From assembly GCA_035574915.1 (NCBI GenBank), contig DATLYJ010000080.1:1-35930 (forward strand): a DNA stretch of 35,930 nucleotides, given 5' to 3'. Shown piece after piece: positions 10,584 through 15,934 of this stretch (position 1 is its first letter; every line of letters begins with the position of its first letter). Both the position numbers and the translations under genes were made by a program. The stretch comes from Dehalococcoidia bacterium (GTDB taxonomy: Bacteria > Chloroflexota > Dehalococcoidia > DSTF01 > WHTK01). Under the pieces are notes generated by a model. It was given only the letters and a program-made list of their open reading frames with translations, was not told the DNA's origin and made no database searches.

Positions 10584-11957
10584 CTAGCGCGCCTTCCACG
10601 TCGTCCCATGGGGGCCGTCCTCGAGCACGATGCCCAGTTCGCCGAGGCCGTTGCGGATGCGATCGGCGAGCCCGTACTGCTTCGCCTCGCGCAGCTCGCG
10701 CCTGATCGTGATCAGCAGCTCGATGAACGGCGCCGCCTCGGCCGGGCCCTCGCGTTCCAGCTTCAGGCCCAGGACCGACGACAGCTCCCTGAGCTGCGAC
10801 TGCGCCTCCCGGATGCCCCGGCCGGCGTCGCGGGCGCGGTTGATCTCCCGCGCCAGGTCGAATAGCGCCGCGAGCGCGCCAGCGGTGTTGAGGTCGTCTT
10901 CCATGGCCGCGACGAACCGGTCGCGGTACGGCGCCGGCTCGACCGGGGACGTCGTGCCCGTCTCCGCTGCTTCCAGCGCCGTCCTGAGCCGCGCGGCCGC
11001 GCTCTTTGCCGCCTCCACTGCCTCTTCGGAGTAAGTCAGCGGCGAGCGATAGGAGCTGCTCAAGACGAAGATGCGGATGGCGTCGGCGCCGAAGCGCTCC
11101 AGGCCCTCGCCGATCGTCACCAGCTTGCCCGTGGACTTGCTCATCTTCTCCTCGCCCAACTGGAGCAGGCCGTGGTGCACCCAGAAGCGCGAGAACGGGA
11201 CCTTCCCGGTGTAAGCCTCCGTCTGCGCGACCTCGTTCTCGTGGTGAGGGAAGAGCAGGTCGAAGCCGCCGCCGTGCAGGTCGATCTGCGGTCCCAGATG
11301 CCGGTACGACATCGCCGAGCACTCGATGTGCCAGCCGGGGCGGCCGGGCCCCCAGGGACTGTCCCACGCCGGCTCGCCCGGCTTGGACGCCTTCCACAAC
11401 GTGAAGTCCATGGGGTTTTCCTTGCCCTCAAGGGGTTCGATGCGCGCGCCCGCCATCATCGACTCCAGGCTGCGCTTCGAGAGCTTGCCGTAGTCCGCCT
11501 TCTTCTCCACCCGAAAGTAAACGTCGCTGGCCTCGTTGGCGCCCTTGGGCGGGCCGATGTAGGCAAAGCCCTTCTCGATCAGGCCCTCGATCATCTCGAT
11601 GATGCCCGGGATCTCTTCCGTGGCCCGGGGGTAGACGTGCGCCCTCAGGACGTTGAGCGCTTCCATGTAAGACTCGAACTGCTCGATGTAGCGCCTCGCG
11701 ATGTCCCCAACGGTGCCGCCTTCGCGTTCCGCGCGCAAAATCAGCTTGTCATCGATGTCCGTGTAGTTCTGGACGTGCTTTACCCGCCAACCCTTGAACT
11801 CGCAGTAGCGGCGCAACGTGTCGAAGATGATGTAGCTCATCGCATGGCCCAGGTGGCTCTCCGAGTACGGCGTGATGCCGCAGACGTACATCAGGAGCTC
11901 GTCGCCCATGGGAGCGAACTCCTCCACCTTGCCGCTGAGCGTGTTGTGTAATCGCAT
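10584..11957 (-). CDS. cysS: cysteinyl-tRNA synthetase
   Basis: Charges tRNA-Cys. Full-length class I enzyme of 457 residues: zinc-ligand Cys26 in YVCGITPY, HIGH-type motif HLGH (35-38), NYTDIDDKLI, RPGWHIECSAM and HGGGFDLLFPHHENE with further zinc ligands. The KMSKS loop (GEEKMSKSTGK) is near 268. A DALR-like helical domain and a C-terminal anticodon-binding region follow, as in ordinary CysRS. The ATG has GAGGG a few bases upstream. It is the last gene of the minus-strand run cysE-hisI-cysS, after 92 bases without an obvious promoter. A second, shorter homologue at 14741-15934 lacks the C-terminal extension, so this copy is the likely housekeeping enzyme. Confidence 0.96.
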   Translation of the reverse strand: MRLHNTLSGKVEEFAPMGDELLMYVCGITPYSESHLGHAMSYIIFDTLRRYCEFKGWRVKHVQNYTDIDDKLILRAEREGGTVGDIARRYIEQFESYMEALNVLRAHVYPRATEEIPGIIEMIEGLIEKGFAYIGPPKGANEASDVYFRVEKKADYGKLSKRSLESMMAGARIEPLEGKENPMDFTLWKASKPGEPAWDSPWGPGRPGWHIECSAMSYRHLGPQIDLHGGGFDLLFPHHENEVAQTEAYTGKVPFSRFWVHHGLLQLGEEKMSKSTGKLVTIGEGLERFGADAIRIFVLSSSYRSPLTYSEEAVEAAKSAAARLRTALEAAETGTTSPVEPAPYRDRFVAAMEDDLNTAGALAALFDLAREINRARDAGRGIREAQSQLRELSSVLGLKLEREGPAEAAPFIELLITIRRELREAKQYGLADRIRNGLGELGIVLEDGPHGTTWKAR

Positions 11958-12643: not shown

Positions 12644-13309
12644 TCACGCCCCGGAGCGCACGCGCTCGTCGCGAAGGGCCTGCTCAAGATCCGAGACCTT
12701 GGCTTGCAGCTCCTCCACCCGGCGGCTCAAGTCCTCGATGCGGTCCCACTCCGGGTCGGGCAGGCGCACGACCGTGTCGTTGCCCGAGTCGTAGTAGGCG
12801 ACCACCTTGCCCGGCACGCCTACCACCGTCGCGTACTCCGGCACGTTGGTGACCACCACCGAGCCGGCACCGATGCGGGCGTGGTCGCCGATCGTTATCG
12901 CGCCGATCACCGCCGCGCCCGCGCCCACGGTCACGTGGTTGCCCAGCGTGGGGTGGCGTTTCTCTCGCCGGTTGCTGGTGCCCCCGAGCGTGACGCCCTG
13001 CATCAGGTGACAGTCATCGCCGATGACTGCGGTCTCGCCGATCACGACACCCATGCCGTGGTCGATGAACAGACCCTCGCCGATCTTCGCGCCGGGATGG
13101 ATCTCGATCCCCGTGAACCAGCGGCTGAAGTGCGAGATGACGCGCGGTAGGACCGGCACGCCCGCGTTATGTAGAGTATGCGCCAGGCGGTGCAGCTGCC
13201 GAGCGTGGAAGCCCGGATAGGCAAGCACCACTTCTAGCGCGCTGCGCGCCGCCGGGTCCTTCTCCTGCGCCGACTTGATATCTCTGAGGATGCTCTTGAG
13301 AACAGACAT
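12644..13309 (-). CDS. cysE: serine O-acetyltransferase
   Basis: Makes O-acetylserine from serine and acetyl-CoA, the committed step to cysteine. The short EpsC-like form has 221 residues. An N-terminal helical part ([27 protein letters not shown]) precedes a left-handed hexapeptide-repeat helix from about residue 70. That helix contains [22 protein letters not shown] with the catalytic His, then GVTLGG and the RHPTLG loop. The C-terminus is a coiled coil ([18 protein letters not shown]). The ATG has AGGAGG upstream. The 5' leader carries a cysteine-rich reading frame and hairpins (see 13310-13442), which points to control by cysteine supply. Gene order ispD-ispF-cysE-(hisI)-cysS matches a widespread bacterial cluster. 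Confidence 0.96.
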
Positions 13310-13332
13310 GCCTGCCTCCTGTCTCTATCACT

Positions 13333-13349
13333 GTCCTTCGCCGAAGGAC
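13333..13349 (-). other. hairpin 2 of the cysE leader
   Basis: GTCCTTC, loop GGC, GAAGGAC: seven perfect pairs, seven bases downstream of hairpin 1. It shares the TCCTTC/GAAGGA arms with hairpin 1, so the strands can exchange partners. No run of T follows, so it is not a simple terminator. Confidence 0.6.
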
Positions 13350-13355
13350 GCGCCC

Positions 13356-13393
13356 GGGGTGCTGCCGTTCCTTCCGTGGAAGGACCGCACCCC
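13356..13393 (-). other. hairpin 1 of the cysE leader
   Basis: Outer arms GGGGTGC and GCACCCC (seven pairs) enclose an inner stem TCCTTC/GAAGGA with a CACG loop. It begins on the last base of the leader-peptide stop codon, so a ribosome on the final Cys codon would cover its 5' arm. Confidence 0.65.
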
Positions 13394-13428
13394 TATCGAC
13401 AGAGGCATTCGCGCAGGCAGAGCTTCAT
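13393..13428 (-). CDS. cysteine-rich leader peptide of cysE (MKLCLRECLCR)
   Basis: Eleven codons ATG to TAG with cysteine at positions 4, 8 and 10 (TGC, TGC, TGT). The ATG is preceded by CTGAGCCG and by TACACT eight bases upstream, so the transcript would be leaderless or nearly so. The TAG shares its last base with the first base of the following hairpin. Three Cys codons in eleven directly upstream of the gene for the committed step of cysteine synthesis is very unlikely by chance and is the hallmark of an attenuator leader. Too short for normal gene finding. Confidence 0.6.
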   Translation of the reverse strand: MKLCLRECLCR

Positions 13429-13565
13429 CGGCTCAGAGTGTAACATAACGGGACTCGCGCTTTTCGGCCCGGCGCCTGCCCGCATGCCGGAAGCCCGTCA
13501 GCCTGTCCCGGCCAGCACGAGCCCGGTCCCCCGGAGTCCTCCGAGGTCAGCACAACCCGTGAGGG

Positions 13566-14740: not shown

Positions 14741-15934
14741 CTAGCGCCCCAGGGTCAGGCCAAAGACGTCCGTTGCGAGCCTCTTTGCGGCGCCCGCGTT
14801 CCTCGCGCTACCCGATGCCGCCAGCTCCAGCAGCCTCGTGACGGCGGCCTCGAGGTCGAAGCCGGAGTCCAGGGCCCCCAGCAGGGAGGAGTCGCCGTGT
14901 CCGGCGGCCTCGATGGTCCCCTGGGGCGTCGCCGCCTCGACATCCGCTAGTTCCGCCGCCAGCGCCTCCGCCGCCCCAACCCAGCGTCCGAGGGACGCCT
15001 CATCGTAGTCCCAGTCCGAACGGTAATCGCGCGCCAGCAGATAGAGGCGGACGGCGTCCGCGGGGAAGCGGTCCAGCAGGTCTCCCGCGAAGACCATGTT
15101 GCCCAGGGACTTGCTCATCTTCTCGCCGTCCAGGCGGACCATTCCCGTGTGAATCCAGTGCTTCACGAACGGCTTTCCGCTGTATGACTCGGACTGCAGG
15201 ATCTCGCAATCGTGGTGAGGGAAGAGCAGGTCGCGGCCGCCGCCGTGCAGGGTAAAGCTCTCCCCCAGGTGCGCCATACCCATCGCCGAGCACTCGATGT
15301 GCCAGCCCGGACGGCCGCGGCCCCAGGGGGACTCCCACCAGGGCTCGCCTTCCTGCCACCCCTGCCAGAGCACGAAGTCCAGGGGGTCGCGCTTGCGCGG
15401 GTCGTCCGGGCGATTACCGTTCTGGTTTGCGACCCGCAGCTTCTCCTCGTACGGCGCCGGGAACAGCCGGCCGAACTCGGGCGCGCGCCCAACCTCGAAG
15501 TACAGGCTGCCGCCGCTCTCGTAGGCAAGGCCGAGTTCCTGGAGACGGGCGTTAATCCGGCACATGTCCTCGATGTGCTCCGTCGCCCTTGGGTTCACGT
15601 CGGGCGGCAGATTATTCAGCCGCCGGCTCACGTCCCGGAACTTCGCGACCTCGCTGTCGCCCAGCTCCCTCCAATCCCGCCCGACCTCGCCCGCCTTCCG
15701 CAGGATGTCGTCGTCGATGTCCGTGATGTTCTGGACGTACTTGACCTCGTGCCCCAGGAAGCGCAGGTAGCGCACCAGCACGTCGAAGAACGTGTACGTG
15801 AAGGCGTGCCCCAGGTGCATGGCGTCGTACGGCGTGATGCCGCAGACGTAGAGCCCGATCAGCGGGTCAGCTGGGATCCGTTCGATTCGGCGGCTGAGCG
15901 AGTTGTAGACCCGGGGCGGCGGCAGGAGCGGCAC
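14741..15934 (-). CDS. short cysteinyl-tRNA synthetase paralogue resembling MshC-type cysteine ligase
   Basis: A 397-residue class I synthetase fold. Zinc-ligand Cys31 sits in YVCGITPYDAMHLGHA (HLGH 40-43). YVQNITDIDDDIL, DWRELGD, RKRDPLDFVLW, GRPGWHIECSAM, HGGGRDLLFPHHDCE and HTGMVRLDGEKMSKSLGN (KMSKS about 272) follow. It stops about 60 residues earlier than the cysS copy in this window and has little anticodon-binding region. The GITPYDA-HLGHA motif, the DW-L segment and the short C-terminus resemble MshC, which joins cysteine to glucosaminyl-inositol in mycothiol synthesis. A tRNA-charging or cysteine-activating role with another acceptor is equally possible. GTG start without ribosome site; TAAGAT lies six bases upstream. 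Confidence 0.85.
   Translation of the reverse strand: MPLLPPPRVYNSLSRRIERIPADPLIGLYVCGITPYDAMHLGHAFTYTFFDVLVRYLRFLGHEVKYVQNITDIDDDILRKAGEVGRDWRELGDSEVAKFRDVSRRLNNLPPDVNPRATEHIEDMCRINARLQELGLAYESGGSLYFEVGRAPEFGRLFPAPYEEKLRVANQNGNRPDDPRKRDPLDFVLWQGWQEGEPWWESPWGRGRPGWHIECSAMGMAHLGESFTLHGGGRDLLFPHHDCEILQSESYSGKPFVKHWIHTGMVRLDGEKMSKSLGNMVFAGDLLDRFPADAVRLYLLARDYRSDWDYDEASLGRWVGAAEALAAELADVEAATPQGTIEAAGHGDSSLLGALDSGFDLEAAVTRLLELAASGSARNAGAAKRLATDVFGLTLGR

Follow-up and report, generated by a model that had tools for sequence, protein, structure and literature searches.

A rigid Cys-codon and hairpin module before cysE and cysS in many Chloroflexota: a probable cysteine-sensing leader

Terminator-less leader ORFs rich in Cys codons were predicted in 2005 in front of the cys operons of Mycobacterium and Propionibacterium and of cbs in Bifidobacterium (Seliverstov et al., PMC1262725); mycobacterial examples have since been found by profiling (Shell et al. 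2015, PMC4633059) and, as reported in a citing paper, shown to respond to cysteine (Canestrari et al. 2020, Mol. Microbiol. 114:93, as cited in PMC9031893). In the mycobacterial leaders, which lead into cys operons or cysA2, the Cys codons come in runs and a conserved hairpin is lacking (PMC1262725). A second system, uORFC-8-2, is confined to Rhodobacterales and combines tandem Cys codons with an intrinsic terminator, complete with a U run, for transcription attenuation (PMC8632094). No version of a Cys leader from Chloroflexota, or in front of cysE, was found in the open-access literature, and neither were papers on cysteine regulation in Chloroflexota, a subject that appears little studied.

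The DNA analyzed here (the window) is a 35,930-nt stretch from a Dehalococcoidia bacterium; all features below lie on its minus strand. The gene of interest is cysE (12644..13309, ATG at 13309), which encodes serine O-acetyltransferase (TIGR01172 above cut-off, E 2e-68); the closest named CysE in the genome collection, at 71%, also comes from a Dehalococcoidia bacterium. A first-pass annotation had described an 11-codon ORF with three Cys codons, MKLCLRECLCR, behind a TACACT hexamer, and the ORF is there, at 13428-13393 (ATG AAG CTC TGC CTG CGC GAA TGC CTC TGT CGA TAG). The -10-like TACACT (13437..13442) lies 8 nt 5' of the leader ATG, a leaderless geometry; an alternative in-frame ATG upstream, at 13446, would yield MLHSEPMKLCLRECLCR before the same stop. 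One Cys codon (13419-13417) stands apart from the other two, which form the core motif TGC CTC TGT (Cys8-x-Cys10; 13399..13407). A 5-nt spacer, CGATA (13394..13398), separates the last Cys codon (Cys2 of the pair) from a GC hairpin, GGGGTGC...GCACCCC (13356..13393), whose first base is the G of TAG, the leader stop, and which is predicted both by folding and by a covariance model. Folding also predicts a second small hairpin, GTCCTTCGGCGAAGGAC (13333..13349), which lies between the main hairpin and the Shine-Dalgarno sequence (SD) in the window genome and falls outside the conserved module described below. The segment just before cysE (13310..13325), which contains the SD AGGAGG (13320-13315), is complementary to the leader and pairs with 13402-13418 in the predicted ensemble.

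The leader is preceded by ispD and ispF; downstream, on the same strand, are a hisI-like ORF and cysS, which encodes cysteinyl-tRNA synthetase (10584..11957; TIGR00435, E 1e-138). cysS is possibly carried on one transcript with cysE, and the cysE-cysS adjacency is found also in module-carrying relatives. Two CysS-family genes in fact flank the cysE/isp region, the one just named (10584-11957) and another at 14741-15934; the latter, 397 aa long, also gives an MshC score, which is below cut-off, and may encode a CysS-like paralogue with a different function. The window contains no match to a full -35/-10 promoter and no detected intrinsic terminator, and neither the window nor any of ten leader loci has a gathering-score match in Rfam 15, T-box included.

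How far does this arrangement extend? CysE is present in all 18 genomes of the same order, and a Cys-x-Cys leader ORF precedes cysE in every one, where shuffles predict about 6%. The first-pass annotation had named a lack of conserved Cys codons or complementarity in relatives as grounds for giving up its reading; the Cys codons turn out to be conserved (18/18 genomes), and the complementarity of leader and SD covaries. In a sample of the class, the leader occurs in 57/89 upstream regions against 5.7 expected from dinucleotide shuffles, and an enlarged set of loci has it in 60/128, representing ~20 families. It is mostly missing where ispF is immediately followed by cysE; no comparable leader was seen in cysE upstream regions of other phyla, nor any leader upstream of cysK/cysM in the same order. 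The loci share descent, a dependence that family-level tests lessen but do not abolish; taken together, we judge the comparative sequence evidence decisive against chance.

The conserved unit is a rigid module. In 59 loci from ~20 families, aligned without gaps on the Cys pair and chosen with no part played by the hairpin, TGC-NNN-TGT is followed by exactly 5 variable nucleotides, a length fixed in relatives, and then by a GC hairpin; the position after the spacer, which opens the hairpin, is G in 97% (family-weighted). The ungapped logo shows TG to be invariant in both Cys codons, with TGC as the first in 54/58 loci and TGT as the second in 57/58 (13401-13399 in the window), whereas within cysE itself, at these loci, Cys is encoded by TGC 28 times vs by TGT 4 times. 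The fixed U of Cys2 is unaccounted for by plain Cys starvation. The hairpin, set 5 nt past TGT and missed by the first-pass annotation, is the most conserved structural feature; in its stem, 50 cells are altered on both sides vs 25 in shuffles, and the covariation score is reached by 0/500 shuffles, in an alignment fitted to the model, which favours structure. In the peptide, the middle residue of Cys-x-Cys is small or hydrophobic and the remaining residues are unconserved.

Two covariance models, R1 and R2, extend the picture. In 18 whole genomes of the order, every R1 or R2 match at E<0.01 is a cysE leader; owing to its 38-nt hairpin, the leader of the window escapes R1 in a genome-scale search, and R2 finds it within the window only (13408-13356, 23.5 bits, E 0.0012). 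At E<=0.01, R2 matched 35 of 400 Chloroflexota genomes, 31 of them outside the class, and 29 of the 31 out-of-class matches lie directly before cysE (usually then cysS) or before cysS alone; within the class, 35 genomes matched, 33 of them next to cysE, one in a leader that sits at the end of a contig, and one falsely. Across phylum and class, nearly all matches at this threshold directly precede cysE or cysS, and four are in or near unrelated sequence; L298, L308, L315, and L320 were judged false positives. A control set of 35 genomes, mostly from other phyla and including a few Chloroflexota, gave 0 matches at E<=0.05 in a search run without a positive control. By these matches, the module is a phylum-level arrangement before cysteine genes in many Chloroflexota.

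Is the short ORF translated? For frame, start, and stop statistics, 81 modules were gathered without any ORF rule. A stop within 12 codons upstream occurs in 0/81 in the Cys frame, against 30% and 15% in the other frames; ATG is found in the Cys frame in 64/81 vs 7 and 8 in the others; where a -10-like hexamer lies 4-11 nt ahead of a start codon, that start codon belongs to the Cys frame (17/17); and the stop falls exactly one codon past Cys2 in 34/81. This is strong frame evidence that the leader ORF is translated. In the window, as in families f5, f7, f32, f36, f61, f68, and f75, 6-11 nt separate a -10-like hexamer from the ATG, and several families have a perfect TATAAT 6-10 nt 5' of the ATG, which suggests leaderless leaders in those families; a leaderless start is likely in the window and in several families. 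In other families, such as f4, the leader ORF is preceded by an SD. The first-pass likening of the leader to leaderless polycysteine ORFs is apt as to the probable start, and falls short as to the Cys-x-Cys pattern, the hairpin at a fixed distance, and the families led by an SD. In two families, f70 (L102, L109, L114) and f61 (L104, L120, L121, L123), the leader ORF spans the hairpin and reads on across the cysE start, with its stop 17-20 nt into cysE and in a different frame; translation of leader and cysE would then collide or couple. Could a single genome have come by the whole arrangement by chance? In the window on its own, the complementarity stands only at the 3% level, as detailed below, but all comparative results contradict chance: conservation, covariance-model searches, and frame statistics rule it out, and we give it practically no credence.

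The module shares with leader-peptide attenuators a short translated ORF with codons for what the following genes make or charge, here Cys codons placed before cysE and cysS. Like the mycobacterial leaders, it puts its Cys codons close to the end of a short ORF, in several families probably leaderless, in front of cysteine genes, it has no terminator, and translation-level attenuation is proposed for it; unlike them, it has Cys-x-Cys, exactly 5 nt, and a conserved hairpin, and precedes cysE/cysS in another phylum. A run of Cys codons near the stop is absent, and the window peptide has no adjacent Cys codons. Like uORFC-8-2, it couples a Cys-codon ORF to RNA structure before a cysteine gene outside Actinobacteria; unlike uORFC-8-2, which precedes cysS, it has no U run and no tandem Cys codons and is found mainly at cysE. 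With uORFC-8-2 published in 2021 (PMC8632094), the module would not be the first cysteine attenuator outside Actinobacteria. With attenuators of the trp/his/leu type the module would share a leader ORF in the codons of the product and an RNA structure alternative to ribosome occupation, but it has no intrinsic terminator and the element masked would be the SD of the next gene; with translational attenuators of the erm type it would share a ribosome stalled in the leader ORF that frees the next SD, but the proposed signal is amino-acid shortage and not a drug. The module appears to work like known Cys leaders and fails defining features of each, which makes it, as far as sequence can tell, a new version of a known kind.

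What could the leader pair with? Complementarity between the leader and the cysE ribosome site, reported in the first-pass annotation, is borne out in the window: the GCCUCUGUC:GACAGGAGGC duplex, with one bulge, has a stability of -12.1 kcal/mol and the GCCUGC:GCAGGC duplex one of -10.2 kcal/mol. The leader:initiation-region duplex scores -26.1 vs -19.1 for shuffled leaders, and 3.3% of shuffles are equally stable; taken alone, the window complementarity is only mildly unusual. The whole-leader fold has z = -2.5, the best predicted fold uses a shifted register, and AGGAGG is about half unpaired there. The SD, exposed to 0.51 when the RNA is free in the model, becomes no more accessible with a ribosome stalled on the Cys codons (0.30-0.41). 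Simulated SD access with 60 nt of extra upstream RNA differs from that of a fold begun at the presumed start, and we weight single-locus folding little because the result depended on the RNA start used. Modelled folding of the window backs SD masking only ambiguously; since the SD is half open when free and no more open when stalled, masking at this locus is putative.

Relatives are more informative. The leader fits its own SD region better than shuffles do in 16/19 families. Families f2, f5, f34, f86, and f141 give no clear leader:SD excess; examples of the pairing are CGCTCCTCGCTG:CAGCGGGGAGTG and CTTGGCATCTTCC:GGGAGGTGCCAGG. In swap tests on 83 loci, which left out L303, L307, and L319 (motif mis-assigned), the fit to the own SD exceeds that to the SDs of other families in 22/27 families (p about 5e-6 and 2e-6). 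The Cys-codon region, too, matches its own post-hairpin spacer (p about 1e-4). The pairing data support one long, hairpin-capped stem between a leader arm and the spacer plus SD. The anti-SD arm ends a median of 18 nt before Cys1 (the first Cys codon of the pair), about where a stalled ribosome has its back edge, and so queuing may matter; in many families the distance from the arm to the Cys codons downstream of it is 20-60 nt, more than one ribosome footprint, and in f134 the arm precedes the leader start, a placement that simple stalling leaves unexplained. One stalled footprint raises simulated SD access in relatives only from 0.23 to 0.28, and the first-pass proposal that stalling exposes the cysE start is not borne out in the form given; with the stretch upstream of the Cys codons occupied, access in relatives is 0.38, and a simulated stall plus queue takes it from 0.35 to 0.44 (p 4e-5). 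In one family, f2 (L088, L089, L090, L091, L094), a small perfect hairpin of the GAGGAC-GCC-GTCCTC-ATG type sits at the cysE ribosome site and is proposed as an alternative means of hiding the SD.

The cross-genome comparison shows a translated ORF, its Cys codons, the fixed spacing, the hairpin, both complementarities, and the link to cysE/cysS. On this basis the leader module is very probably a cysteine-sensing switch, and we rather favour, as its mode of action, ribosome-mediated cysteine attenuation of cysE translation (of cysS in some relatives). The short leader ORF would be translated before cysE. When charged tRNA-Cys is ample, the ribosome would clear TGC-NNN-TGT and depart, and the leader RNA would form the long stem capped by the GC hairpin, with the 5' arm (leader ORF sequence that includes or precedes the Cys codons) paired to the cysE spacer and SD to keep translation low. 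Under a shortage of charged tRNA-Cys, ribosomes stalled at the Cys codons, together with a queue behind them, would cover the 5' arm and free the SD. What would the hairpin do? While Cys2 occupies the A site, the last of the five spacer bases falls at ~+11 counted from the P site, the location assigned to the ribosomal helicase; the hairpin would reach the mouth of the mRNA channel at the moment when Cys2 moves into the A site, and it may sharpen the pause. More tentatively, with somewhat less than even confidence, we suggest a phylum-wide Chloroflexota class in which UGC-N3-UGU, with a wobble-read UGU as Cys2, lies one entry-channel length before a hairpin whose opening is coupled to the decoding of Cys2, the SD of cysE or cysS being released from pairing with the leader ORF.

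Must the output be translational? Stalling at the Cys codons might instead leave SD access aside and govern transcription, with Rho-dependent termination inside the spacer, or decay of the RNA, as the output. None of 80 loci has a U-tract after the hairpin (at most 4 T in the following 8 nt), so the hairpin is not an intrinsic terminator, a reading rejected also for lack of any terminator in the window; a transcriptional output would consequently need Rho, which has been proposed for mycobacterial cys leaders (PMC1262725), and it would sit well with the several leaders whose anti-SD arm is beyond the reach of one ribosome. The leader:SD complementarity nevertheless covaries between families, a feature superfluous to a device that is purely transcriptional, and we think this alternative unlikely.

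Two further proposals were weighed. The invariant Cys-x-Cys, its small or hydrophobic middle residue, and the near-constant TGT (57/58), none of them required by plain Cys starvation, would suit a nascent peptide that binds a metal or jams the exit tunnel, holding the ribosome without any shortage of tRNA-Cys, but the remainder of the peptide is unconserved and the genes behind the leader are cysE and cysS, not metal genes, which makes such a sensor improbable. The U fixed as the third base of Cys2 and the exact 5-nt spacing look, on the other hand, like constraint at the RNA level, as if a structured RNA were read by a factor other than the ribosome (a riboswitch or a protein site) with the ORF incidental; the strong frame evidence, the lack of ligand-pocket-like conservation outside the codons, and the lack of an Rfam match all speak against this, and we consider it very improbable. 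Attenuation of cysE translation by ribosomes held at the Cys codons stays the reading we prefer.

Such a module would be a specific and testable control element, phylum-wide and absent from Rfam, acting at two points, the first committed step of cysteine synthesis and the charging of tRNA-Cys; its exact 5-nt gap between Cys codon and hairpin, with the fixed UGU, could reveal how a sensor combines codon reading with mRNA unwinding. Similar Cys-rich short ORFs, beginning MRVLCAVCADCLTV and MHALCAECASCLTA, occur ~140-160 nt upstream of cysE in Hydrogenovibrio/Thiomicrorhabdus (L049, L075, L076), where they could be a further leader or could overlap an adjacent gene.
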